Origin: Candidatus Bathyarchaeota archaeon
GTDB lineage: Archaea; Asgardarchaeota; Lokiarchaeia; Sigyniarchaeales; Sigyniarchaeaceae
Length of the DNA: 34,471 bases
Reading direction: 5' to 3'
NCBI GenBank assembly: GCA_014729935.1
Contig: WJJB01000395.1
Location: forward strand, 1 to 34,471
This document shows positions 1-30,990 of this stretch, in pieces. Position numbers and translations under genes: made by a program. The notes beneath the pieces were generated by a model that had not been told where the DNA came from, did not search any database, and worked only from the letters and a program-made list of their open reading frames with translations. The number at the start of each line of letters is the position of its first letter. The first letter of the stretch is position 1.

Positions 1-167
1 AGGCTATCCAATCTCTAAAGCACGGCATGCGATTCATCTTGATAGAAAGGACTGGAGGGGTGGCACACACTATACCGGGGGACATAAGAAAAGAAATTGA
101 AATATTCGACAGCATGGATGAAGTGCCTGCCTTTATCAAGCAATGCATCTCGAAATCACCGGATTAG
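1..167 (+). CDS. 3' end of an unidentified protein, possibly HAD-like
   Basis: An open frame enters from the left edge (codons begin at base 3) and ends with TAG at 165-167. It encodes about 54 residues, including the stretches FILIERTGG and EIFDSMDEVPAF. The frame is not in the ORF track because its start lies outside the window. The pattern of a hydrophobic strand, a glycine turn, an I-P segment and a final acidic-hydrophobic helix resembles the C-terminus of haloacid dehalogenase-type phosphatases, but too little is present to be sure. It ends 6 bp before the stop codon of the pyrophosphatase gene on the other strand, so the two genes converge tightly. The track ORF 97..285 is in another frame and is not credible. 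Confidence 0.6.
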   Translation, partial: AIQSLKHGMRFILIERTGGVAHTIPGDIRKEIEIFDSMDEVPAFIKQCISKSPD

Positions 168-173
168 CCAGAA

Positions 174-737
174 TCAAGGCTTGGTAATTGCAATATTACC
201 GAACTCCTCCTTGAATCGACTTATGCAATTCGAGATGATCCGTATGGCATCGTCGTGCCCGTGCCATTTCTTGACCTTCGCGTAAGCAGGTTCCTCGAGA
301 TTCTTGTAAGTATTGAAGAATTCCCTAATTTCATCAATGTAATGTCTTGGTAAATCGTCCAGATCATCCATCTCCCCGAAAAAGGGACAATCTCGTGGAA
401 CCGACAGGATTTTCTCGTCGCGCCCCTTTTCATCCTGCATCACGAGAACACCAATTGGTTTCACCCTAGCTAGCGTCATTGGTTGAGTGGGAGTATTGCT
501 TATCACCAAGACATCAAGTGGATCTCCATCAAGTGCATATGTCCCAGGAATGAACCCATAGTCCTGGGGATAAACCACGCTTGAATGCAATACCCTGTCC
601 ATGATTAGCAAATTCGTGCTTTTCGATAACTCGTATTTCTTGTGAGTTCCCTTGGGGCATTCTATAAATGCATATAACAGGGAGGGAGGATCAGGTCCCG
701 GAACTATATGCTTCCAATATATCATGTCATCATTCAT
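174..737 (-). CDS. ppa: Inorganic pyrophosphatase (family I, soluble)
   Basis: The 187-residue product matches soluble family I inorganic pyrophosphatases, which hydrolyse PPi to two phosphates in the cytosol and pull biosynthetic reactions forward. Visible family hallmarks are the N-terminal W-K-H...PG...PP segment, the active-site ECPKGTHKKYE region, the YPQDYGFIPGT segment and the metal-binding signature DGDPLDVLV. A second metal-site segment, DEKGRDEKI, and a lysine-rich C-terminal helix follow. Length is typical for prokaryotic members. The ATG at 737 overlaps the TGA of the upstream disulfide oxidoreductase gene (ATGA, 4 bp), so the pair is probably cotranscribed and translationally coupled. 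The functional call is secure. Confidence 0.95.
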   Translation of the reverse strand: MNDDMIYWKHIVPGPDPPSLLYAFIECPKGTHKKYELSKSTNLLIMDRVLHSSVVYPQDYGFIPGTYALDGDPLDVLVISNTPTQPMTLARVKPIGVLVMQDEKGRDEKILSVPRDCPFFGEMDDLDDLPRHYIDEIREFFNTYKNLEEPAYAKVKKWHGHDDAIRIISNCISRFKEEFGNIAITKP

Positions 738-1369
738 GTCTTGTAACCTATGGCGTTGAATAATAGTTCCAAGCTTGGAACACCTTCAATTCTTTCGCTT
801 CCATTTATGATCGTGACGGGAACACCTGTAACCCCGTACTTTCTTGCGATGTCCGGGTTTTCGTATGACTCAATGATGTCGATATTCAACCGGCCATTGG
901 AATCAATGACGATGGAATTTTCTATCAATGCCGCCTGTGAACAATAGGGGCACGTGGGAGTAACGATCAACTCTAAATTTGCTTCCTTCAGCTTTTCAAG
1001 CTTGTCATCAAGCATCCCGCTAAAAATTGTTTTCCTTGTTGACGCCATGTATATGGTATAGATGAATGGTGAGGTTTCCAATCCCATTGGTGCCCCAGTA
1101 TAGCGAATACCAAGATTCTCGAATAACACGGTTGGAGCCCTGGTGACATTCAATTTCTTGCACGTGGCAACCTCATCAATTATTGAAATTTCCTCAAATG
1201 CAAGTAGATTAGAGCCTTTCGCAAGCTCTTCTACAAGCGAGGCGGTGTCCTCGCAAGCGGGACATTGCCGGTAGCCTTCCGCCGTCAAGGTAGTAATGAC
1301 TTTCAATCTAACGGGATTTTTCAAGGAATCCAACAAACGCCTGATATCAGCAGCACTCAACTCATTCAC
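734..1369 (-). CDS. Protein disulfide oxidoreductase (tandem thioredoxin folds)
   Basis: The 211-residue protein consists of two thioredoxin-fold units. The first has the motif CPAC at residues 36-39 and a cis-proline loop (RAPT). The second has CPYC at 140-143 and a second cis-proline loop (GVPV). This layout is the one known for archaeal protein disulfide oxidoreductases (PDO, glutaredoxin-like family), which make, reduce or isomerise cytosolic disulfides and are usually fed by a thioredoxin-reductase-like partner. The start is GTG at 1369. No in-frame ATG lies nearby, and GAGGTG, a good Shine-Dalgarno match, sits 11 nt upstream. It is the first gene of a two-gene unit with the pyrophosphatase. 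A functional link with PPi hydrolysis is not obvious and may only reflect joint expression. Confidence 0.88.
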   Translation of the reverse strand: MNELSAADIRRLLDSLKNPVRLKVITTLTAEGYRQCPACEDTASLVEELAKGSNLLAFEEISIIDEVATCKKLNVTRAPTVLFENLGIRYTGAPMGLETSPFIYTIYMASTRKTIFSGMLDDKLEKLKEANLELIVTPTCPYCSQAALIENSIVIDSNGRLNIDIIESYENPDIARKYGVTGVPVTIINGSERIEGVPSLELLFNAIGYKT

Positions 1370-1484: not shown

Positions 1485-4400
1485 TCAAGGAAAGCAGGTT
1501 TCATGACATGTCGGGCACGTCACCCTAACATTGGCGGCATTCCAACCCTTGGATTGTTTCATGAGAAGCAAATCTCCACATTTCTTGCACGAGATGATTA
1601 TTGAAAATAATTCCCCACATGTCTTGCATGAATACAAGCAAGATCCTTCCAGGGGTTTAACCAGTAACTGCAAACTACACTTCGAGCAATAAAATCTCGT
1701 GAGATGAAGAATTCCACCGGAATGGGTATTGAATTGAATAAATTGCCTCTTGGTGGATTTTTTCCTTGCTAATAAATGCAGGCTGGTATCTCTTTGTGTC
1801 GCAAGATTATTATCAGTCATTGGAGCCATTTCTTGGCCTATTATGTCATCCAAGTCATTATATGCACGTGACACCTTGGGAGCAATGGAATCATTGAAGG
1901 AGGGGGTGATGATTCTATTCGAGTCACCGGAGTCTCTATTCGTAATTATCCTCGCAATATCAATGCCACCATCAACCCAGTCTTCCGGAATATCGAGGGA
2001 TGATACCTGCCTGTACAGCCTGTACATGCCATTGTATATTTCTACTGGATACGCTTGAACTGACTTTTTATTGCGTGATCTCCGGTTAATCAAAATGGCT
2101 GTGGTTGAAATACCAATCAGGGAAGCACTTGCAATCAAGAGCATGATGAAAAGCCCATTCCTGGTATCTTGATTTGTGTCAATGATCACCTCGCGTGTTG
2201 GGGATGAAACAATCTGCCAACCATCGTGGTATTGGAAGCTGATATCATGTGAACCTTCTTCCACCCGTGCGATGGCTTCATAAACTACGCCGCGGGTGAA
2301 ATCGGGATCCCCATTCTCGTGGCTCAAGGTAAAAGCATGAATCTCATGATCAATCCACAATCGCAATTGCTGGGGTTGGGAACCATCCAAATCCCTGAAA
2401 GACACCAATACTTGCAAGTTTCCCGATGGAAACTTACCAGAATTTATCGAAAGTAGCTCCACTTGGGATGGATGAAAATTCCCATCAAGGGGATAGCGGA
2501 AAAACAACATGCGATGTTCCATTCCCTCTTTTTCCTTCATTCCCGCGCACCATGCTCCAGTGATGAAAAGTGAATGTTCGGCTACGATGGCATTGAATGC
2601 CGTAACATTCATGGAAGGATTCCACACGCGTTCCATCTGGCGTGTTCCATTTGTTCCATAAGTGAATACAGTAATGCGATTCTCCCGCGAATTGGTATCT
2701 ATAGCATTTCCCACGATATAAATTGCATTCTCATCGCAATTAACAGACACGCATTGCTCTTCCTGCTGGGACCCCCAAGTCCGATACCACGTAACCACGG
2801 GTGAACCATCCGTTGAGGTTTTCACTAGCAAGTAGTCTGATTCCATCCCCGAACTCCCTGGAACACTTCCAGTTATGTATACGTCATCATCCTTCACGCA
2901 AATATCATTGGCACTTTCCCTGCCGTCCTCCATGATGAACCATGAAAACAACTCCGCTCCTTCCAATGTCCACTTCTGGTAGTGAATGCCATTCAGCCCC
3001 TGCGAGTCATAGCTGCAAGTATACAGGTATTCACCATCGGTACAAATTCCCCTCCCTTCTTGAAAGCCATTGGAGCCTTGACGGTACCAATCGAGTGTTC
3101 CATTCAATGAACAACATGCGAGGAATTGCCTGATTTCTAGCGATGCATCCACGGTGGTTCCGAATATGAAAACCTTGGTGCCATCAGTCGTGATGCTATT
3201 CGCCGACTGTTTACCTGGAAGCAACCAGTGGGATTGACCAGCAAAGAAGCCTGTGGTTGTCCAACGAATTAAAACGATCTTTTCGTTACTGAGATCATCA
3301 CATGCCACGTATACATGCCCATCATGAGCCACCATTGCTTGAACTTGAATATCCTGTTCGAGGAAAATGGAAACATTCCATGCTTGCTCCCCACCCCGGT
3401 TCCAGCAGGTCATGATAATTTCCCCCGTCGAAGGCTTTGAGGTGCATGTAAAAAATTTTCCCGCTTCTTCGCAGGCAAGTGACTTTGAAATATCAGCAGT
3501 TCTATGCTTCCCCACATGGTACCAAGGAATGAATTTGTCCACGACTGCGGGTGCTTCGATTAAGTCGGTCATGGTTGTGTATATTCCATCTGAACAGGCA
3601 AATGCATGTGTGTAATTACCCGGCGTCTCGATATCCATTTTTATCTCATACATGCACCCATCCATGTAGTTACAATCACTTGGATCCCGTTTATACATGG
3701 GATGAACGGCGGGCCCAATCAACACGTGCACGTATTCTGGTGGATTATTATCACCATCCTTATAATTAACGGAAAATGTGAATTCGGTGGTATCAGTTGA
3801 GCCGTTGAAGGGTTCCACAATTATCGGTTCCAATATTGGAGCCATGGTATTTGAATAGGTCACGACAAGTTCAGGAACGATCACGGTCGATTCATAAATC
3901 CCGTCATGGGCTGTTGCAAGGCAATGGTGCACTCCTGGTTGGAAATATGCTTCCACATAATAAATGCAACCATCCATGTAATTCTCATCAAGGACATCAA
4001 GCTTCTCCATTGGCATGGAGTAATTTTCGGTGGCTAGGTTAAGATTTCTCGGTCCGAGGTTATCAGCGTCCTTGTATTTAATGGTGATTCTAATCCTGTC
4101 GGCGGTGGTGGACCCATTTCTACAAATTGTTAGGTTCTCCAAGACGGGAGCGTGAAGATTTGGGAGAATTTCTAACGGGAATGAATTCGACCAGGTATTC
4201 ACATGGTATCCAGAGCTAAAGCCCACCCGCCAATAATAGGTGCCTGGATCGAGAGATGAGACATTGAGAAGACAGTGATGCAATCCATCTTGCCATGTTG
4301 CGTTGCATGTTGCCATCACGGTTGAGAAATTGGAAATATTTGAGAGTTGAAGGGTCCAATCATGCTCAATTCCAAATGAAAACGTGCTGGCCCACCGGAA

Positions 4401-5099
4401 ATCAATTATTCCTGCGGGAAAGCTTGATCCAGGCGCAGGTTCCACGTGCTGCAACGATAACGGACGGTAGCCTTCTTGATCCTCATTCAAAAAACCAAGG
4501 GTATTGGTAAACGATTGCATCCAATCCCCAGAATCATGCGTATCCGTATCGGATAACCTGCAAACATTATTCTGGTTCAGCGATAGGTTTTTCGATTCGG
4601 TCCAGATGGCTTCGAGGGGAATGGGCAAATCATATCCATTCATATCCATCCAATCAACATTCAATCCCCTGTCGTTAAAAATTCCTAGTGCAACAGGTTC
4701 GCCGCTGAATGGAAATATATCGTCAATGAAAAGATCCGAAAGGCTATCATTACCCGTGCCCTCATGAAGGACCAGGAAACTTTCACTTGGAAGCATGAAT
4801 CCTGCAGGGAATGAATAATTAATATCAATACCAGATTCGGTGAAACACCTGAACGTCCAGCCATTCATTGAAATAACAGAACCATAATTAATCAATTCCA
4901 CCCCCCGGGTTCCTCTATTGCACACCTCATTTATCAAGATGGTCCCCGGGTGGTTAAAGGATGATTGAGATGGTGTTTTCGTGGTATACTTCATCCCCGT
5001 TAGGTATTCAAAGGTGCAATCCAAGTTTGAACCATTAGAACTCTCTTGCGATTGCACGGTTATGGACATCCCTACAAGGAAGATGAAAAGAACCATCAT
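1485..5099 (-). CDS. Giant membrane-anchored surface protein: lamin-tail domain, Ig repeats, beta-propeller, cytosolic zinc ribbons
   Basis: The protein has about 1204 residues from ATG 5099, or 1225 from the TTG at 5162 used in the ORF track. From the ATG the order is as follows. A signal peptide (VLFIFLVGMSITV) is followed by a lamin-tail-type domain at about 50-160, with NEVCNRGTRGVELINYG and NGWTF as its typical core. An FN3-like unit comes next, then two Ig-like repeats with the pattern KDxDN...DG..Y...PG.H/Y. A long repeat region of aspartate-glycine blades (ITGSVPGSSG, YIVGNAID) looks like an SBBP-type beta-propeller, followed by a third Ig-like repeat. A single membrane helix near 985 precedes an approximately 190-residue cytosolic tail ending in two zinc ribbons (CSKC...CKTC and CKKC...CPTC). 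The layout suggests a surface receptor or adhesin with an intracellular signalling or docking end; this role is inferred. It is the third gene of a minus-strand run behind GH20 and the sulfatase-like gene. Confidence 0.85.
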   Translation of the reverse strand: MMVLFIFLVGMSITVQSQESSNGSNLDCTFEYLTGMKYTTKTPSQSSFNHPGTILINEVCNRGTRGVELINYGSVISMNGWTFRCFTESGIDINYSFPAGFMLPSESFLVLHEGTGNDSLSDLFIDDIFPFSGEPVALGIFNDRGLNVDWMDMNGYDLPIPLEAIWTESKNLSLNQNNVCRLSDTDTHDSGDWMQSFTNTLGFLNEDQEGYRPLSLQHVEPAPGSSFPAGIIDFRWASTFSFGIEHDWTLQLSNISNFSTVMATCNATWQDGLHHCLLNVSSLDPGTYYWRVGFSSGYHVNTWSNSFPLEILPNLHAPVLENLTICRNGSTTADRIRITIKYKDADNLGPRNLNLATENYSMPMEKLDVLDENYMDGCIYYVEAYFQPGVHHCLATAHDGIYESTVIVPELVVTYSNTMAPILEPIIVEPFNGSTDTTEFTFSVNYKDGDNNPPEYVHVLIGPAVHPMYKRDPSDCNYMDGCMYEIKMDIETPGNYTHAFACSDGIYTTMTDLIEAPAVVDKFIPWYHVGKHRTADISKSLACEEAGKFFTCTSKPSTGEIIMTCWNRGGEQAWNVSIFLEQDIQVQAMVAHDGHVYVACDDLSNEKIVLIRWTTTGFFAGQSHWLLPGKQSANSITTDGTKVFIFGTTVDASLEIRQFLACCSLNGTLDWYRQGSNGFQEGRGICTDGEYLYTCSYDSQGLNGIHYQKWTLEGAELFSWFIMEDGRESANDICVKDDDVYITGSVPGSSGMESDYLLVKTSTDGSPVVTWYRTWGSQQEEQCVSVNCDENAIYIVGNAIDTNSRENRITVFTYGTNGTRQMERVWNPSMNVTAFNAIVAEHSLFITGAWCAGMKEKEGMEHRMLFFRYPLDGNFHPSQVELLSINSGKFPSGNLQVLVSFRDLDGSQPQQLRLWIDHEIHAFTLSHENGDPDFTRGVVYEAIARVEEGSHDISFQYHDGWQIVSSPTREVIIDTNQDTRNGLFIMLLIASASLIGISTTAILINRRSRNKKSVQAYPVEIYNGMYRLYRQVSSLDIPEDWVDGGIDIARIITNRDSGDSNRIITPSFNDSIAPKVSRAYNDLDDIIGQEMAPMTDNNLATQRDTSLHLLARKKSTKRQFIQFNTHSGGILHLTRFYCSKCSLQLLVKPLEGSCLYSCKTCGELFSIIISCKKCGDLLLMKQSKGWNAANVRVTCPTCHETCFP

Positions 5100-5170
5100 G
5101 CTTCCCTTCTTGTACCGTGATATACCAAACCACACGTGAATTCCCCGTGTAAATGCATGCAAGACTTGTT

Positions 5171-11012: not shown

Positions 11013-14000
11013 TCAGGAAGGTGCGGGGGGATATTTCACGAGCGAGAGGGTGAGGTGACGCATGGTTGCGGGTTTCTTGCTCGATCGGATGTGCCGGTTC
11101 ACGGGACGTCCCGGGTGTATTAGAACTCGTAGCTCCTTCATCCCGTTTTTCAACCGGTGCATCTTCACTGGATCATACAATCGTTCCCATTGCGGGGACC
11201 TGAAGTTTTGCTGGTGAAAGGTTGCTGGAAGGGTGATGGTGATTGCCATGGAAACGGGTATTGGCGCATCGGCTTGAATCGATATTTTCATCGCGTGATC
11301 TCCCTTGGCAATGCCGGCAGCTGCCAAATCAAACGGTGCATATGGTGCTTGAATGTTAATGGCAAGGTATGCCGGTGGTCGTTTTACTGCTCCTTGCGAT
11401 CCCCTGGTATCAATATCTCCCATCCAATTACCATTGAAACCTTTGAAAGAATCCACCTTTTGGCCTTGAATGAAAATATCCATCACTCCAGCTTCATCCT
11501 TGCTTGATGATTGAATGGAAGTGCATGATATCTCAATGGGAATAACGTCTTGGATATCATCACCGAAGTAATCCGAGAACTGAAGCATTCCATGCGGGTG
11601 CATGCTAATGGGTTTCATGCGCTTGGGGAGCAGATGCAATCGTAAGTCTTGGATGAACTTGTTGGTGTCACGGTAGGGATCACCTTTATCTGGAATCCAC
11701 ATGATGAGTCCTTCTTGATGCTTGAAACTATTATATTCCCGCTTATAAAACTCCGGGGCGACTTGGTTCATGAACGGATTTCCCTCAATCAAGGAGGGGA
11801 TTTCCTTGGATATCCAAATGAGATTGCAGGGTAACGATTGACACGTGGAGTCCAGCGGTGTTTCAATTACCGGTGGCAAGATATTCAACAGGAAGGATAC
11901 TTGCCCGAGGATCTCTATCGCGTGTATCTTACTACCAGGATCGTGAATGATGGCACATTTTGGTTGCCCTGTGGTTCCGATGAAGAAACCTTCCATGGAT
12001 TTCCAAAACTTGCACTTGGACGAAGGATTTGCGAGTGATATCATTTTAATTGGCTTTGATGCTGTTTGTGTTCCTCCAGATTCGTACATGCTGATTTGCT
12101 TCAATCCATTGTACCTTGCAATTTCTTTACCATCCTTTTTCACCGCACATAGTAATTTGCCAGACTTTCGAGTCATTCGGAAGGAATAGTTACTTCCCCT
12201 GATCTTCACGTTGTCAAATGCTATTGATTCCACCCAAGCGGGGCAATAGGGAACCAAGTGAATGGCTGACCGGGTGATGCGGATTCCTAACAGGTATTGC
12301 ATGATTGATTCCATGACCACCATGGTGTCCCATAACCGTCGACGCTCGGTCCCCCACGACCTATCGTAAATATCATGTATCTCATTAACCGATCCAGTGC
12401 AATTAAGGAAATCAAGCATGCCATCTAAGAGCACGTCCCCTGCTTCCCTGGCATTCCCGAATCCAAGTGCTTCCAATGCATATCCAGGACAATTCCCCGT
12501 CAAGCATGATGTTGCGGAATGCGAGCGAATGATGGTATGGCAACTTGATTTATCACCCGAGATACCCGAGAAAAAAGGTGTCTTGCAATGTTGCCAGATT
12601 TTCTTGAGGCCATTGGATGCAATTTCATGAAACTCGGGAAAATAATGGAGGAAATCGAGGATGAAGGGACGTGCGAGAGGGATGGTGATGGCACTTTCAT
12701 CTTGAATACCATCGTCGTCCAATGCAACTGCAAAAACTTGCTGGTTTTCAATCACGAGTTTTTCCATTAATGCAGCCCTCATTCGATCCAGGGAGTTCTT
12801 GCACTTGGTCTTCATGGCGGAGTCGAGGAATTCCTCCAGCCAATCCAAGGTTGCAGCGAGCGCCGTCATGGTTAGGACGGAATTATCAAGCACAGCTCCG
12901 GTCTCTCTCACGTCGGATGCCCATATCCATGTTTCATCGCTATTTAAAGGAAGCAATCCTACTCCAGGTATCGTTAATTCATTGATGACCGTGGTAACCA
13001 TGGCAAGGACCCGATCCTTGGAAAGCTCGCGCTGCGCCAATCCTGGCGCCCATTTATATAACTCTATGATCATGAGCAGGAGGTATGCCGGCAACTCAAC
13101 AAGTACCTCGCACTGTGGATTTGAGCGGCCATAGTTAGTGATTCCATAGCTGTTGGAAAACTTATTGGCATTCTTGTGGAAGGCGTCAAGGAAAAATTTC
13201 ACGTTATTAAAGCAGAATCCATGAAATCCAACTTCATGCAATGCCTTTTGATTCCAATAATTATCCCTTGTCCACGCGCGATCGTGAGAGTAATAGACGC
13301 TGCCAGAATGGATACCCTTTGAACTCACGTGATTTAGCCCCATTGTTTTCATAGCATCAAGGGCATCTTCCAACCGTTGATTTGAAGACTGGCAGGCAGA
13401 TTTCTTTGAAATTTCCTGCCATGCATCATAGGTGGCATCAAGCATTGCAATTATATCGTTAGGAGGGAAATGAGCAGCGGCTTGGGCATTTAGATCGCTT
13501 CCAGTCCCAAATGGTGCTTCACTCGATTTCCATTCACCCGGCTTGATAGCAAGCGCGAGCATCCGTTCTTCACAAGGCTGGATATTGCCCAAACATACTC
13601 GGATGCATGTAATCTCACAATTACCACCCTTTTCATCATCGTGGACATTCTTCATGGCTTTCATGCTATCAGGGGATCCATCCCATTCGATGACATCCAG
13701 CTCAAGGTTTCCAACATCCATCGGGATTACTTGTATCTTGAAGCGGGACTCCTCCCTCTCATCTTTCACGAAAAGAGTGGAACGGTTCCTAGAAAACTGC
13801 CAGGACCACGAGCATGCCCTGTTCTCCAAGATAACATCAATGAAAACATCCTCAAGCGACCGATTTCCCAAGTTGGATACGGTCAATATCCTGAATAGGT
13901 AGGGAAGATCAGGATTTTTCGGGCAAAAATCCAACACAGAAACACCCAGACTCGATTGGGTAAGCTCGGAAGCAATGATTGAGGTGCCCTTGATCCTGCT

Positions 14001-14435
14001 TGATATTTGGACCATTTTTGCAGGGTGCATCGACATGAACTTATCACCTTCCTTGAACCTGAATTGAAAATCCTGGATCTTCCACACAGTTGGCAGGTTC
14101 CTGAAATGAATCTGTTCCTTCCGTGGGCCGTATAAGGTGGATAATGCAAGCACGTTAATCGGAGGGAGGAAGGAGGCGTCATTTCCAGGCTCTTGGTAGA
14201 ATTGATACACCCGTTCCATGTCGATCAAGGGAATGCCCACTGCTGCAAAGATTTCTTCGTTTCCCAAGGTATATCCATCGGGAGAGACCGGTATGTAACG
14301 ATCACCCCTTTTAATCGCCCCATGGGGTGGTTGGGAATGCTCTGGAATCGAGAAGACACGATACATGGACATTTCCTTACCTTCCAGCCATTGCTTGATA
14401 TTCATGGAAGATGAAGGTCGAGATGGAGAAGCCAT
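11013..14435 (-). CDS. Large protein with a six-hairpin (alpha/alpha)6 glycosidase-like core
   Basis: The protein has 1140 residues. About 350 residues of beta-rich sequence precede an (alpha/alpha)6-barrel-like region at about 360-720. That region contains HDRAWTRDNYW near 388 and PLNSDETWIWASD near 501, followed by VLDNSVLTMTALAATLDWLEEFL. The W-x-RD and acidic-Trp segments are reminiscent of GH15/GH63/GH65-type and amylo-alpha-1,6-glucosidase-type six-hairpin glycosidases. I cannot assign a GH family or substrate. After the barrel come a beta segment typical of such enzymes (LVPYCPAWVESI) and several further beta domains. No signal peptide is present, so it is predicted to be cytosolic. 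The ATG at 14435 is supported by a TATA box that would give a near-leaderless mRNA. Confidence 0.75.
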   Translation of the reverse strand: MASPSRPSSSMNIKQWLEGKEMSMYRVFSIPEHSQPPHGAIKRGDRYIPVSPDGYTLGNEEIFAAVGIPLIDMERVYQFYQEPGNDASFLPPINVLALSTLYGPRKEQIHFRNLPTVWKIQDFQFRFKEGDKFMSMHPAKMVQISSRIKGTSIIASELTQSSLGVSVLDFCPKNPDLPYLFRILTVSNLGNRSLEDVFIDVILENRACSWSWQFSRNRSTLFVKDEREESRFKIQVIPMDVGNLELDVIEWDGSPDSMKAMKNVHDDEKGGNCEITCIRVCLGNIQPCEERMLALAIKPGEWKSSEAPFGTGSDLNAQAAAHFPPNDIIAMLDATYDAWQEISKKSACQSSNQRLEDALDAMKTMGLNHVSSKGIHSGSVYYSHDRAWTRDNYWNQKALHEVGFHGFCFNNVKFFLDAFHKNANKFSNSYGITNYGRSNPQCEVLVELPAYLLLMIIELYKWAPGLAQRELSKDRVLAMVTTVINELTIPGVGLLPLNSDETWIWASDVRETGAVLDNSVLTMTALAATLDWLEEFLDSAMKTKCKNSLDRMRAALMEKLVIENQQVFAVALDDDGIQDESAITIPLARPFILDFLHYFPEFHEIASNGLKKIWQHCKTPFFSGISGDKSSCHTIIRSHSATSCLTGNCPGYALEALGFGNAREAGDVLLDGMLDFLNCTGSVNEIHDIYDRSWGTERRRLWDTMVVMESIMQYLLGIRITRSAIHLVPYCPAWVESIAFDNVKIRGSNYSFRMTRKSGKLLCAVKKDGKEIARYNGLKQISMYESGGTQTASKPIKMISLANPSSKCKFWKSMEGFFIGTTGQPKCAIIHDPGSKIHAIEILGQVSFLLNILPPVIETPLDSTCQSLPCNLIWISKEIPSLIEGNPFMNQVAPEFYKREYNSFKHQEGLIMWIPDKGDPYRDTNKFIQDLRLHLLPKRMKPISMHPHGMLQFSDYFGDDIQDVIPIEISCTSIQSSSKDEAGVMDIFIQGQKVDSFKGFNGNWMGDIDTRGSQGAVKRPPAYLAINIQAPYAPFDLAAAGIAKGDHAMKISIQADAPIPVSMAITITLPATFHQQNFRSPQWERLYDPVKMHRLKNGMKELRVLIHPGRPVNRHIRSSKKPATMRHLTLSLVKYPPAPS

Positions 14436-24616: not shown

Positions 24617-27600
24617 GTGGAAAAGAGCACCAGCCAACGAGCCTTCTTGCAGGAGTTCCTTAAAGTGGAAATAAAAAACGACTTCACTCGGATCACGGCG
24701 TTACTTGATGACATCCTAACTCTTGGATTGAAGATGGATGATATTGCATCAAAAACGGATGTGGTGGGGAATATCGTTCGCCTGTATGCGGGACTTGGAG
24801 AACGAACGAGAAATCAAGCATTGATTGAAAAAGCACTTGACATCAGCACCAAGATCCCGTACGATTTTCGGCGCATACGCGAGCAGGTAAATATCGCAAG
24901 CCTGTTCAGGAAAAGGGGGAAGAAGGTACAGGCGATCAACCTGCTATGGCGTCTCCAAGATGAAGTGAAGAACATCAAGAATCTGGAACTCAATTCCGTG
25001 GCAAACTTGGCAATCGCTGGCGAGTTTTACATGTTAAACGAGCTGGATGATTACCATATGATCATGGAAAGGGTCTTATCGGCGATTGAAGATTACCAAG
25101 GTTCGATCCTGTTGAGGATCAACGCCTCCCTATCGGTCTATGGATTCTTGGTGGAGCATAATCTCACGGGGGAAGCATTCAAGATTTTTAACTCTATCAA
25201 GGACATCCTTTCCGCACAATCAGATGCCACCAACATTGGCGAGATCCTGCGAGCCATCGTGGCAACCTTCATCTCGCTCTCGAACAAATCCAGCAATTCG
25301 CAAGTGGATTTCCTGCTTGAAGCCTTGGATCTCGCAAAGGAATACCCCACGTTCTACGAGCTTGATATTATCTACCGGGATATCCTGAAGCAGCTATTCA
25401 TTACCAAGGATAGGGACTGGATTGAGGAAAACTTGGAGTTTCTCATCAATATCATCGATCAGGTGGATAATGACCGCATAAAACTGGAAATCATTTATAA
25501 ATTCCTCTTGAAAGCACATGATGAAAAGCTAGATATAGATCCAGAATACCTGGAGCAGCTGATCCAGAGTCTTGAGACCATGAAGGAACGGCTCAGCCCA
25601 TCCAGGTACATCTCCTTCCAATTAATGAAGTTGCAATTGATAGGTATTTTCGTCAACCAGGAGAAATACTTCACAGAAATCGAGCTCTTAATATCCGAAG
25701 TGTTGAAATCAAGCAAATTTCGCAGGAACTTGCCAGAAAAGGTGGCAACCATCCTTACCAATCCAGTGGAATTCTTCACTATCACCCAACCGGATTCCAC
25801 CGAAATGCTGGAGCGGGCTTTGCAACTTACCAAGCATTACGCTCTCTTGGAAAAGAAGAGCGAGATTTTGAAAAAAATACTCATCACCATGGCAAAACAC
25901 GGCTTGAAAATGCAAGACGTGGAAGTATTGGAGAAATCTTTGGATTATGCCAAGAAAATCAGTAATTTGGATGACCGGTTCTTCGTGCTTCATGAGATTG
26001 CAAATGCACTGCACGAGTTGAAACGCACGCTTCTTTCAAAGGATATCCTATCTGGATTACTTGATGAGATTGGCAATATAAAAGCACCAAAACAACGAGT
26101 GAAAGCAAAAATTGCCCTTGCACACACGATTGCAACACGGGAGCATGATATTGTAAAAGGATTGGAATTAATACGTGAGGGCATCCAAGACACCAAATTA
26201 TACATCGTTGGCAATGCGCACAAGACTGTTGCTCTTGATGAACTCGCAATTGAAGCTAGCAATATATTTGGCTGGATACACGAGACCGAGGAAGCAGCCC
26301 GCCGGCAAAAGTATACCACGCTCATCTCCGAGGCAAAGAAACAACTTGATCTGGAGACACGTGAAGGTATCATAAAGGCAGTGTCGATCTATAATGAAGC
26401 CCTCTCCTTCATCGATAAAAACGTCGATAAATATGAACAAGTGTGGTTGGAAGACAGGATAGAAAAATTGAAACGCTACCTTGAAACGTCGGATGATGCA
26501 GAGGAAATAGGGCTTAAGGAAGACGATTGGTTGAAAAAAGAAGATTACAGGATAAGAAAATCGGATATCACCACCAAGCAATCCATTGAATGGCGGAAAA
26601 AAAGGGAATTGGAATATATCATCAAGATCATTAATAACTCCAGATTCCAAGTGAACGAGCTTACCTGCAGGATGAAGAAATACGCAAGGGATTTCTTGGA
26701 GATGGAAAACGAGGATGTGCAGAAAAAAGACGTGCTCAATCCCGGTGAGTCCTTATCCTGCGAGTTCTTGTTTATTGCCCGCAGGGATATCGTTCCGAAT
26801 AATGCCATTGAGGCAGAAATCAATTTCTACGATCCCATCAAGAACAGGCCAGTTTCGAAAGATCTTGAAACCCCTGCAACCAACGCTAAATTCAGGTTTT
26901 TCGTGCCAAAGAAGGTATCCAGTGGGAAGTTCGACAAGATCAAGAATAAGTTCGAGAAGAAATCACACGAATTCCAAGTACCGTACAACGTGTATCTCAC
27001 TTGGCAAAAATTGAACACGTTGATCAAGAGCCCTTCGTTCACCTTCAAGGTGATCCAAAAGGAATATAACGAGATTGCGAATCAATTTTTCGGGGTTACC
27101 CGGTTTCATGCCGAGAGCCGATGGAATCGTTCCAGGCGGCACTCGACTGCCATCCAAGTGATCATCTCGGGGGATATTGGCGAGCGCGAAACGAACGTGA
27201 AAATGGAATTCTTCTTGCAGGATCCCATCATATTATACAATCTCATCAACCTGCTTGAAGAGGAAATCAAGGTATGGAAATGCCCGAATCCTGATTGCAA
27301 CGCGCCACTTGATAAGACGCAAATTGGCATTGATATTCCAGGTACCTGCAAGTTTTGCTCAACCATTTTCCTCCTTGACGTGAATACTAAGAAACCAGAT
27401 CGGCCCCTGAGTTTCGAGATACTTGATACCAGAGATCTCGAGTCGAAGGACCAATTCATGAATTACCTTAAGACGAGGGTAAAGGGCATGGACGATTCGA
27501 CACTCGATGCAACTGCCCTCTTGGTCCCCGAGGAAATGCGTGAACCTGCAAAGCAACTATTGAAACGCGCCATTAACGGGGAAATCAAGCCAAAAGAGCT

Positions 27601-27661
27601 GGTGCGTGAGGCTATCACGAATCACGTGGAAAAATTATTGCAAGCAATCCTCCTGCAGTGA
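24617..27661 (+). CDS. Alpha-solenoid protein with C-terminal beta-sandwich, alpha/beta domain and zinc ribbon
   Basis: The protein has 1014 residues and no signal peptide or membrane helix. Residues about 1-640 form an almost continuous alpha-helical solenoid of TPR/HEAT-like helix pairs (for example LLDDILTLGLKMDDI, LQLTKHYALLEKKSEILKKI). A beta-sandwich-like segment follows at about 655-765 (EYIIKIINNSRFQVNEL, LNPGESLSCEFLF), then an alpha/beta domain at about 775-880 and a zinc ribbon at about 888-915 (CPNPDC...CKFC). A helical tail of about 95 residues ends the chain. The order solenoid, beta-sandwich, alpha/beta platform resembles that of adaptin and COPI large subunits, though I see no sequence motif proving kinship. 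The start is GTG, supported by the TATA spacing. A scaffold or adaptor role is inferred. Confidence 0.85.
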   Translation: MEKSTSQRAFLQEFLKVEIKNDFTRITALLDDILTLGLKMDDIASKTDVVGNIVRLYAGLGERTRNQALIEKALDISTKIPYDFRRIREQVNIASLFRKRGKKVQAINLLWRLQDEVKNIKNLELNSVANLAIAGEFYMLNELDDYHMIMERVLSAIEDYQGSILLRINASLSVYGFLVEHNLTGEAFKIFNSIKDILSAQSDATNIGEILRAIVATFISLSNKSSNSQVDFLLEALDLAKEYPTFYELDIIYRDILKQLFITKDRDWIEENLEFLINIIDQVDNDRIKLEIIYKFLLKAHDEKLDIDPEYLEQLIQSLETMKERLSPSRYISFQLMKLQLIGIFVNQEKYFTEIELLISEVLKSSKFRRNLPEKVATILTNPVEFFTITQPDSTEMLERALQLTKHYALLEKKSEILKKILITMAKHGLKMQDVEVLEKSLDYAKKISNLDDRFFVLHEIANALHELKRTLLSKDILSGLLDEIGNIKAPKQRVKAKIALAHTIATREHDIVKGLELIREGIQDTKLYIVGNAHKTVALDELAIEASNIFGWIHETEEAARRQKYTTLISEAKKQLDLETREGIIKAVSIYNEALSFIDKNVDKYEQVWLEDRIEKLKRYLETSDDAEEIGLKEDDWLKKEDYRIRKSDITTKQSIEWRKKRELEYIIKIINNSRFQVNELTCRMKKYARDFLEMENEDVQKKDVLNPGESLSCEFLFIARRDIVPNNAIEAEINFYDPIKNRPVSKDLETPATNAKFRFFVPKKVSSGKFDKIKNKFEKKSHEFQVPYNVYLTWQKLNTLIKSPSFTFKVIQKEYNEIANQFFGVTRFHAESRWNRSRRHSTAIQVIISGDIGERETNVKMEFFLQDPIILYNLINLLEEEIKVWKCPNPDCNAPLDKTQIGIDIPGTCKFCSTIFLLDVNTKKPDRPLSFEILDTRDLESKDQFMNYLKTRVKGMDDSTLDATALLVPEEMREPAKQLLKRAINGEIKPKELVREAITNHVEKLLQAILLQ

Positions 27662-27783: not shown

Positions 27784-30438
27784 ATGAAACCCAAGCATTC
27801 CATGCATCGCAAGGTGGGATCTTCGCGTATCATGTTTCTCACCTTGATTTTCATCGTACCAGTCTTCATTTCAGGAGCTGTATTGCATCACAACAGCCCT
27901 TCTACCACGTTTCAAGGAATTATCCCTTCCCAAGCCATCGATCCCTTGGATTTGGATCAAATCATGCCAAATCAAACCTGTTGGTTCGATCCCGACATCG
28001 AGTGCTTGATAATCACGACGGCAGCTCTTTCGCCCGAGTTTCAGCCGCTTGCAAATCTGAAGACGAGCCGGGGTGTTTTCACTGAAATACTTACAATCGA
28101 ATCCATTTACTCGAATACTACGTTCACCACTGGAGCAAATGATAATGCAGAATCGATTCGTAACGCAATCAAGCATTATCACGAGAACAAGGGAACAGAG
28201 TTCGTGATCATCGGTGGGGACGTTGATGTCGTTCCGATCAGGTATACCTATAATCCAGATATTAGTGAAACACGTTTCAACAACGGCGATTATTATGACA
28301 CGCTCAAGCCAACCGACCAGTACTATGCAGGATTGAATGGCACGTGGGATGATGATGGGGACGGCTTGTACGGGGAAATGAACCTTCACAATGATAATAA
28401 TACCGACGAAGTCGACTGGGATGCAGAAGTTTTCGTCGGCCGACTTCCCGTGCACGATGCGAGCGAGGCAAATACCCTTATTTCGAAGATCATCGATTAT
28501 GAACTGTCCCCGCCAACAGGTGATTGGTTTAGCGATTCGATCTTTGCTGGAGCGGTGAGCCAATTTGCATATGGTCAATATTCTAGCGTGGATGAGGCGG
28601 AATTGAGTGACTTCATGATTAGTAATTACTTCTCTTCCATGGATCCAACAAGGCTATATTTCAATACCAGTGATTACAGTCCAGTTGAACCATTCACGAC
28701 GCTTTCTTGGGATAACCTCCGTTCTGCGTGGAACCAAGGTGCTTCCGTGCTCAACTTGGCAGGTCATGGCAATCCTTGCAGTTACGGGGGGTATGAAAGC
28801 GTGATGGGAGACGTAACATACATGAATAGTGTGAATTCTGCAACGTTAAGTAATGGAGGAAAGCTGCCCTTTGTATATATCTACGCGTGTTCATCTGGTG
28901 CCTTTGATTTGGAAGAAATTGGCTCTAGCACGCCGATCAATGGCGTTTGGCAATCCTTGGCGGAAAGACTCATCAGGAATCCATCAGGGGGCGCCATTGC
29001 AGTCGTATCTGGTATGCGCACCACGTATTATTTCGAAGGAGATGAGGAGTTGGAAGCGCTTAATCGGGGGCAAAACCGATTCTTCTGGCGGGAGTTCATG
29101 GTTAACCAAGAATACCAACCAGGTAGGACACTATATAAATCAAAAGAGACATATATAGAGGAGTTCATAAATAAGTATTGGAACGTGGACTTGAATTGGG
29201 ACCCCGAGAAGGCAGAGGATAATGATTACATGGAATACCAAGAGGAATTTCGCAAGAATATCCTCACGTATAATTTATTGGGGGATCCCGAGATGCCCAT
29301 TTACACTGCAACTCCTCGGAACTTTACCTCTGGCATCTTACCTCCCACGGCATATCACGGGGATAAATTACTCTTGGAGGTAACTGACCACCTGGGCATG
29401 CCAGTTTCAAATGCTAGAATTTTAATTAACAATTCAGAATACTATATCACGTGTACCACGGATGATCTTGGCATTGGCACCATTCGCATCCCGCATGATC
29501 CCGCGTTAATCGGGGGTGGTTTAAATTATACCATTTCCGCGCATAACATGAACCGGACCAATGGCGTGATTACAATCTTGAACGATACCGTGGCCCCAGT
29601 CCAATTATCAGGGGATATACCCACATCCAAGGTTTCATACAAGAAACCATTCACTATCAGTGCCACGGGAATTGATGATGGTTCCGGCATTAAATACGCG
29701 TTCGTGATCTACGTTGAAAGTAACGGGAGCCTTGACACGTTCCATGAAATGACCCTCGTGTCACATCAAGGGAACTCAACCTCATTTAATTATTCTTACC
29801 CGCTTGATCTGGACCCAGGAAGTACATTAAGTTTATATCTAGTCGGTTATGATGCATCCGGTTCTTGCACGGTTGCCATGAAGGATGGCACCTCGCTTTA
29901 CACCATTAATGTGAAAACGCGTGCCATGGAAATAATCATGCTGGCCTTCGCGGTCGTGGGAATCCCAGCCATGTGCATCCTTGCAATATTATGGTTGAAT
30001 AAATACCGGGAAAAGCAAGCCAATAGCATCCCCCTAGGACGCACGGCTGTCAATTGGGATACCAAGGAACGGGAGGAAACGTCTAAGAATGCAAAAGAAC
30101 AGCAACCAGTCCTTACCCATGATTTCCAGCATACAAAACTGGGATCTGAAGCAAAAAATGAATTGGCATCACGATTGACAAGGGAAATACCTGGTTTTCC
30201 AGGCATATCCGTGATTCAATTCCTTTCCAAGTGGTTATACAAGCGAAAGGGAGGGGGGGTGGCGGAACGTCCTGGTGAGGTTATCATGCTCGAAGAAGGA
30301 GACCTGCAACCCTTCGAACAGCATTTGTTTTCCACGCTCTCGTCAATCCCTACCATTGATGATCCAGATTCAATGGTTGAACGGTACATGGAAGCAATAA
30401 GGAATGGAATTGGCATGGCTGTGTGGAAAGTCCGGTAA
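27784..30438 (+). CDS. Membrane-anchored gingipain-type (peptidase C25) protease
   Basis: The protein has 884 residues. A signal peptide (MFLTLIFIVPVFISGAV) leads to a C25-type catalytic region. It contains GGDVDVVPIRY near 144, a calcium-like DDDGDG at about 189 and FVGRLPV at about 217. The catalytic His is in NLAGHGN (His328), the catalytic Cys in YIYACSSGAF (Cys369), and NLLGDPEMPIYT closes the domain. Two Ig-like domains follow (about 520-600 and 603-710), then a membrane helix (about 716-738). A cytosolic tail of about 145 residues ends the protein. The fold predicts an extracellular caspase-like cysteine protease held at the membrane; substrate specificity cannot be told. Unlike bacterial gingipains it has an intracellular tail, which suggests signalling or regulated anchoring (inference). 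Confidence 0.9.
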   Translation: MKPKHSMHRKVGSSRIMFLTLIFIVPVFISGAVLHHNSPSTTFQGIIPSQAIDPLDLDQIMPNQTCWFDPDIECLIITTAALSPEFQPLANLKTSRGVFTEILTIESIYSNTTFTTGANDNAESIRNAIKHYHENKGTEFVIIGGDVDVVPIRYTYNPDISETRFNNGDYYDTLKPTDQYYAGLNGTWDDDGDGLYGEMNLHNDNNTDEVDWDAEVFVGRLPVHDASEANTLISKIIDYELSPPTGDWFSDSIFAGAVSQFAYGQYSSVDEAELSDFMISNYFSSMDPTRLYFNTSDYSPVEPFTTLSWDNLRSAWNQGASVLNLAGHGNPCSYGGYESVMGDVTYMNSVNSATLSNGGKLPFVYIYACSSGAFDLEEIGSSTPINGVWQSLAERLIRNPSGGAIAVVSGMRTTYYFEGDEELEALNRGQNRFFWREFMVNQEYQPGRTLYKSKETYIEEFINKYWNVDLNWDPEKAEDNDYMEYQEEFRKNILTYNLLGDPEMPIYTATPRNFTSGILPPTAYHGDKLLLEVTDHLGMPVSNARILINNSEYYITCTTDDLGIGTIRIPHDPALIGGGLNYTISAHNMNRTNGVITILNDTVAPVQLSGDIPTSKVSYKKPFTISATGIDDGSGIKYAFVIYVESNGSLDTFHEMTLVSHQGNSTSFNYSYPLDLDPGSTLSLYLVGYDASGSCTVAMKDGTSLYTINVKTRAMEIIMLAFAVVGIPAMCILAILWLNKYREKQANSIPLGRTAVNWDTKEREETSKNAKEQQPVLTHDFQHTKLGSEAKNELASRLTREIPGFPGISVIQFLSKWLYKRKGGGVAERPGEVIMLEEGDLQPFEQHLFSTLSSIPTIDDPDSMVERYMEAIRNGIGMAVWKVR

Positions 30439-30486: not shown

Positions 30487-30990
30487 ATGATCCTTGATAA
30501 GATCAAGGCTTTTTTCCGGGACTACTGGTGGTTCTTCTATTTGCTGCTCACCATCACCGTGTTTTTCATCGATATCCAGTGGGGGATCGTGCTAGCCCTC
30601 GTCTTTTGTGGATTGATCGTGGGCATTACCCTGTTGAAGCGCATGGGGAAAGCGAAAATCTCCAAAAACTTGTTAGGGATCGACAAGATCAGTGAACGGG
30701 AACTTGCCGGGATAACTGGAACTTACGTGGAAAAAGTGCATGCATTCCTGCACGATGTCTCCCGCAATCCCGATGCGTCTGGAATTGCAATTCTCGTGAA
30801 GGGCGAGTATATCTATTTTTCTAACAAAGTTATAAAGAAATTCAAGTTGAAATACAAGGAAGGAATGGGCATGAAGGAGATCATTGCATCCATGGAACAA
30901 ATCGAGACCCGCGATGAATACAAGAAAATATTGCAAAGACTCGAAGAATTTGACGAGCTCCCAGAACGAGACAAGTCAACAAAGGAATAA
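30487..30990 (+). CDS. Small two-helix membrane protein with a cytosolic domain, function unknown
   Basis: The 167-residue product begins with two closely spaced membrane helices (about 14-30, WFFYLLLTITVFFID; about 32-50, GIVLALVFCGLIVGITLL). A basic stretch (KRMGKAKISKN) sets the orientation with the rest inside the cell. The soluble part of about 115 residues has mixed alpha/beta character (SGIAILVKGEYIYFSNKV) and ends in a charged, probably helical tail. I do not recognise a family. It follows the C25 protease gene by 48 bp on the same strand but has its own TATA box. It converges with the gamma-glutamylcyclotransferase-like gene, with 30 bp between the stops. Confidence 0.7.
   Translation: MILDKIKAFFRDYWWFFYLLLTITVFFIDIQWGIVLALVFCGLIVGITLLKRMGKAKISKNLLGIDKISERELAGITGTYVEKVHAFLHDVSRNPDASGIAILVKGEYIYFSNKVIKKFKLKYKEGMGMKEIIASMEQIETRDEYKKILQRLEEFDELPERDKSTKE

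Follow-up and report, generated by a model that had tools for sequence, protein, structure and literature searches.

The origin of vesicle coats is one of the open questions in how eukaryotes emerged. Archaeal appendage domains made up of an IG and a TBP-fold part, comprising Meth_adaptin and Asgard families, were published in 2024, some of them in proteins that also carry TPR, longin, PCI or Vps28_C domains, so that appendages were known on ESCRT-related parts, and one described with a Zn ribbon in Methanobacteriales (PMC10936438), and AP domains were reported by Eme et al. (2023) to occur in Asgard archaea without being fused to each other (PMC10307638). Here, we describe an Asgard protein in which a solenoid ends in what is very probably a complete appendage, which is the layout of the large subunit of a coat or adaptor. 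The new element is this solenoid ending in a full appendage and not the appendage module, already known in archaea since 2024; as TPR repeats are named by Makarova et al. among the domains that accompany Vps28-C/appendage proteins (PMC10936438), solenoid-appendage proteins may also have been seen before in another form.

The protein shares its predicted two-subdomain appendage with the published archaeal adaptin-appendage proteins, at least one of which likewise carries a Zn ribbon, but differs from them in that the appendage caps a 600-residue solenoid, that no Vps28_C or longin domain was found, and that the gene lies outside ESCRT loci (PMC10936438). It resembles the Asgard AP-complex domains in being an appendage-type domain in Asgard archaea, but whereas those are unfused to each other, the appendage here forms one chain with a solenoid, albeit one that is not an Adaptin_N trunk (PMC10307638). 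Compared to the AP2 alpha and beta2 appendages and the beta-COP platform, the predicted fold is alike, with a sandwich followed by an a-b-a-b-b-b-b-a platform at the end of a solenoid; in contrast, identity in structural alignments is ~9-14%, the archaeal trunk is not HEAT/Adaptin_N, and a Zn ribbon and a helical tail are added. The tryptophan of the AP2 peptide pocket appears to be without equivalent, since none of the four orthologs has an aromatic residue at the aligned platform position, where the alignment is unsure and identity low. With the GAE domains of the BBSome (BBS1, BBS9/PTHB1) the likeness concerns the sandwich half, through relatives that match Pfam GAE profiles, but the archaeal protein has a solenoid in place of a beta-propeller, propeller fusions being found in its relatives.

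The window analyzed here (34,471 nucleotides) is one entire contig of a draft genome, in which the gene occupies positions 24617-27661 on the plus strand, an open reading frame of 1014 aa with a GTG start and exactly the limits given in an initial annotation of this DNA. The alignment to three full-length orthologs, 39-41% identical, extends from residue 17/21 to residue 1014 and establishes it as a real conserved gene; of the four other genomes in its family, three carry the ortholog, each as a single copy. Because the ortholog records are labeled Lokiarchaeota or Sigynarchaeota (Candidatus Lokiarchaeota archaeon Zod_Metabat.1055, Candidatus Sigynarchaeum springense, and Sigynarchaeota archaeon SQRJ_79), this is an Asgard protein, as the initial annotation had guessed. 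The GTG start is uncertain, as the orthologs may begin ~16-20 codons further in, and the true start may lie equally far downstream. Invariant residues run through the entire length of the four-ortholog alignment, including C889, C894, C911, and C914 of the zinc ribbon, and this alignment together with the structural models bears out the annotated succession of helical repeats, sandwich, alpha/beta segment, zinc ribbon, and helical tail (Table 1). Direct searches with the protein against Pfam, NCBIfam, and PDB sequences returned no homology, and since the 1014-aa protein stays below the cut-off of every Pfam family, database annotation would miss it. No transmembrane segment was found in the protein, its highest 19-residue hydropathy being 1.2.

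Table 1. Features of the solenoid-appendage protein and its conserved downstream neighbors (positions in the window)
Feature	Position	Residues	Strand	Basis
Alpha-solenoid trunk, ~28 helices	24677..26491	21-625	+	AlphaFold2, Foldseek, trunk profile
Predicted appendage beta-sandwich (IG/GAE-like) subdomain	26567..26887	651-757	+	Model, superfamily profile, Pfam matches of relatives
Predicted appendage platform (alpha/beta) subdomain	26888..27274	758-886	+	Order in model, superfamily profile, Coatomer_b_Cpla match of a relative
Zinc ribbon, C889-x4-C894 / C911-x2-C914	27275..27391	887-925	+	Invariant cysteines; equivalents in Asgard relatives
C-terminal helical bundle	27428..27658	938-1014	+	AlphaFold2 pLDDT ~62-85
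C25 (gingipain/PorU-like) protease with probable C-terminal transmembrane helix, conserved downstream neighbor	27784..30438		+	Peptidase_C25 E = 2.8e-57
Small membrane protein, predicted transmembrane N-terminus and soluble domain, conserved	30487..30990		+	53-61% identity, gene order

Residues ~650-886 very probably adopt an adaptin/COPI-type appendage fold, a claim made because independent families, both halves, their order, and the fold agree. In a template-free model of the excised residues 642-890, with the four sequences as alignment, the proximal IG-like sandwich has its strands at residues 651-749 (model 10-108) with pLDDT ~90, and the distal alpha/beta half follows in a-b-a-b-b-b-b-a order at pLDDT 30-50. 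This is the element order of the AP2 alpha-appendage platform; in adaptin/COPI appendages the distal platform has five strands with helices on its flanks. Folding was seen with the excised module alone, and full-length AlphaFold2 with four sequences leaves the module unfolded. Foldseek of the module model against the whole PDB placed AP2 alpha-appendages at ranks 2-5, 8, 9, 12, and 17, with alignments of 244-257 columns that cover both subdomains (E 1.7e-6 to 2e-4), so that eight AP2 alpha-appendages and one beta2-appendage stand among the 22 matches at E <= 0.001; the beta2-appendage ranked 15 and BBS1 ranked 26. TRAP-alpha ranked first, but over the sandwich alone (~150-160 columns), and GH20 was among the sandwich-fold matches as well. 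Full-length TM-scores are modest (~0.38-0.41), as the poor platform coordinates would lead one to expect, and assignment of the putative platform draws on element order, the full-length AP2 alignment, and the Coatomer_b_Cpla match of a relative. The Foldseek comparison with adaptin appendages that had been proposed for this segment thus recovered the AP2 alpha-appendage across both subdomains, and the appendage reading of residues ~650-880 held up in Foldseek, the superfamily profile, and the Pfam matches of relatives alike.

In whole-protein searches, residues ~640-955 were the part that recurred in numbers outside the protein's own family. Against a superfamily profile built without that family, residues 665-889 scored 95.7 bits (E = 7e-26, with the database size set to 500,000 for superfamily E-values), compared to at most 5.2 bits for 200 shuffled sequences; the sandwich (E = 1.8e-7) and platform (E = 1.4e-14) scored separately, and over these comparisons together no shuffled sequence exceeded 7.2 bits. 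By these profile searches, the homology spans both subdomains and the protein belongs to the archaeal appendage superfamily. The module is widespread in Asgard archaea, with matches to a profile of relatives in 131 of 228 genomes. It is carried by propeller-like cytosolic proteins (three loci), stands behind the predicted transmembrane segment of surface proteins with LVIVD-like or NosD/PKD-like outer parts (three further loci), the propeller, LVIVD, and PKD labels being read from sequence, and occurs on TIR, PCI, and TPR proteins, the TPR-plus-appendage combination in one case. Three scans of viral contigs yielded no relatives able to deepen the appendage alignment. Most genomes of the class encode module-bearing proteins of about 790-806 residues; a protein of 804 residues on another contig of the same genome (C167, 1089-3500, plus strand) combines PCI, E3_UFM1_ligase, and DDRGK matches with the module, and at locus L058 (936-5228, plus strand) an appendage platform shares a 1431-residue protein with NosD/beta-helix repeats and a TIR domain.

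To connect this superfamily with eukaryotic appendages, 41 divergent members were compared with the 24,736 families of Pfam, among which Alpha_adaptinC2 was matched most often (9 members, best 4.9e-4), followed by DUF11 (7), GAE_BBS1 (5), PTHB1_GAE (4), TRAPPC13_C (3), and Coatomer_b_Cpla, which represents the platform of the beta-COP appendage (2 members, best 9.5e-5); the generic sandwich family CARDB was, like DUF11, also matched by some members. One relative matches PTHB1_GAE and then Coatomer_b_Cpla, in the correct order. Across 83 genomes of the class, the best eight Alpha_adaptinC2 places all fall in proteins recognized by our own profile A2, and 10 of 23 such places overlap listed places of the module. 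Single Pfam matches are weak, since neither PF02883 nor PF14806 was matched over its curated cut-off in the 83 genomes and Alpha_adaptinC2 also matches in 2 of 14 control genomes. When profiles were compared directly with that of the AP2 alpha-ear (PDB 1ky6/1qts), no significant match emerged. From the agreement of independent families, both halves, order, and fold, we nevertheless infer with strong confidence that the archaeal module is homologous to eukaryotic appendages. Two further lines were set aside. The top PDB match of profile A5 was the beta-COP appendage platform (E = 0.036), which we demoted to a hint because it weakened to 0.12 with a platform-only profile and was absent with profile A9 (41-row alignment), and a Coatomer_b_Cpla search of the class returned chance places, with none of the eight retrieved loci matching the appendage profile.

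The trunk has a different affinity. AlphaFold2 with the four orthologs as input places ~28 helices in residues 6-624, and pLDDT over residues 21-625 is mostly 67-88 with a few weaker stretches. Foldseek searches of the PDB paired the trunk, at low TM-scores, with generic solenoids of the TPR, HAT, and HEAT kinds (Ctr9, spliceosomal proteins, Ton1535, VPS35L), and the 50 matches listed included no trunk of adaptin or COPI type; no Pfam repeat family reached its cut-off in the trunk, and Adaptin_N had no match at the locus. The trunk is therefore a generic TPR/HAT-like solenoid and not an adaptin HEAT trunk, and because a HEAT trunk was looked for and this solenoid found instead, we do not class the protein as an AP or COPI subunit. 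Of the coat-like trunk plus appendage suggested by the initial annotation, the appendage is supported and the adaptin/COPI trunk is not. A trunk-only profile run on 226 Asgard genomes found the four orthologs strongly and everything else as weak partial matches, so the trunk appears lineage-specific within the sampled genomes, four of which, all from one family, have it as a unit.

The genomic context directs attention to membranes. The two genes downstream of the solenoid gene encode a C25 peptidase and a predicted small membrane protein, and in all four genomes the three genes lie side by side and face the same way; the order C25, small protein, ERCC4-type nuclease, and rubrerythrin recurs at the three other loci. 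As read from sequence, a hydrophobic and probably transmembrane helix closes the C25 protein, and the small protein, whose counterparts at the other loci are 53-61% identical, has a hydrophobic N-terminus. Upstream and divergent is a family B DNA polymerase, seen in two of the three other loci. The solenoid gene has no GTPase, ESCRT, or coat gene next to it, and a search for neighboring small GTPases, advised when the gene was first annotated, found none in the entire contig and 56 Arf-family matches elsewhere in the genome.

We favor, at a probability of about 0.5, a soluble cytosolic adaptor-like scaffold that carries an appendage of the adaptin/COPI type. Its long solenoid might hold one partner or self-assemble, and could also serve as a spacer and second binding surface, while the sandwich-plus-platform appendage at its end would recruit proteins via short motifs, acting as a hub in the way the AP2 appendage does; docking or pairing surfaces may come from the zinc ribbon and the C-terminal helices. 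The likeliest membrane partners would be the products of the conserved adjacent genes, the transmembrane C25 protease and the small membrane protein, so that the scaffold probably acts like an adaptor, clustering or sorting membrane or secreted cargo. Binding of motifs and membrane cargo and a role in sorting are suggested with weak to moderate confidence, and that this is a true cargo-sorting coat or adaptor subunit is a tentative and somewhat unlikely step further. We hold in equally guarded terms the proposal of a single-chain subunit, with solenoid trunk and full adaptin/COPI-type appendage, that sorts membrane or surface cargo and whose trunk originated separately from the AP/COPI HEAT trunk. 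If such a single-chain coat or adaptor exists, the trunk-plus-appendage design would have arisen more than once, before or beside eukaryotes. The protein and its operon offer a concrete test of whether an archaeal solenoid-appendage binds membranes, motifs, or Arf-like GTPases.

Other roles are conceivable for the same architecture. An ESCRT-linked cargo adaptor, analogous to ESCRT-0 as has been proposed for archaeal appendage proteins (PMC10936438), would take the place of a coat subunit and draws on relatives in which the module is fused to PCI and VPS28 C-terminal domains (VPS28 above cut-off in one case), on two weak cases of such fusions in the protein's own genome, and on the two Snf7/ESCRT-III genes of that genome. 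We think it unlikely here, given that the protein showed no VPS28_C, steadiness box, PCI, or ubiquitin-binding domain, that no ESCRT domain was found in the protein or the window, and that the solenoid gene lies in no ESCRT locus. Similarly doubtful is a scaffold for the maturation, export, or regulation of the adjacent C25/PorU-like surface protease, unrelated to vesicles or cargo sorting: the conserved three-gene arrangement fits it, as does the likeness of the peptidase to PorU, the type IX secretion sortase, over the catalytic part of that enzyme (NCBIfam 4.5e-25, below cut-off), but the long cytosolic tail of the protease is confined to this genome and not conserved in the others, and adjacency by itself is no proof of interaction. 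A generic TPR-type signaling or regulatory scaffold whose sandwich and alpha/beta parts resemble an appendage by convergence would suit the TPR/HAT matches of the trunk and the recurrence of sandwich folds (TRAP-alpha, GH20, DUF11 matches), but is improbable given that both halves match appendage families independently and in the right order and that the fold search spans the whole AP2 appendage.

Large subunits of AP and COPI assemble with sigma and mu subunits and are recruited by an Arf GTPase; besides its Arf-like GTPases, the genome encodes, away from the solenoid gene, a protein with a mu-like domain, and neither shows a link to that gene. Matches to Adap_comp_sub, the adaptor mu-subunit domain, occur in four proteins of the same genome family (best 2.3e-8, over cut-off), with the same proteins matching DUF11 and the control genomes lacking a match.

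The zinc ribbon had been put forward as novel, a view overturned by equivalent CxxC pairs after the module in many Asgard relatives and other Asgard families, and by the published case in Methanobacteriales (PMC10936438). Behind it, the C-terminal tail weakly resembles that of another appendage-protein family (three loci; hhalign probability 34%, compared to at most 3.2% for 20 trunk segments used as control). Elsewhere in the window, two long proteins of 1225 and 1140 residues (1485-5162 and 11013-14435, both minus strand) have no Pfam match, and the 1225-residue protein ends in zinc-ribbon-like cysteine pairs after a hydrophobic stretch.
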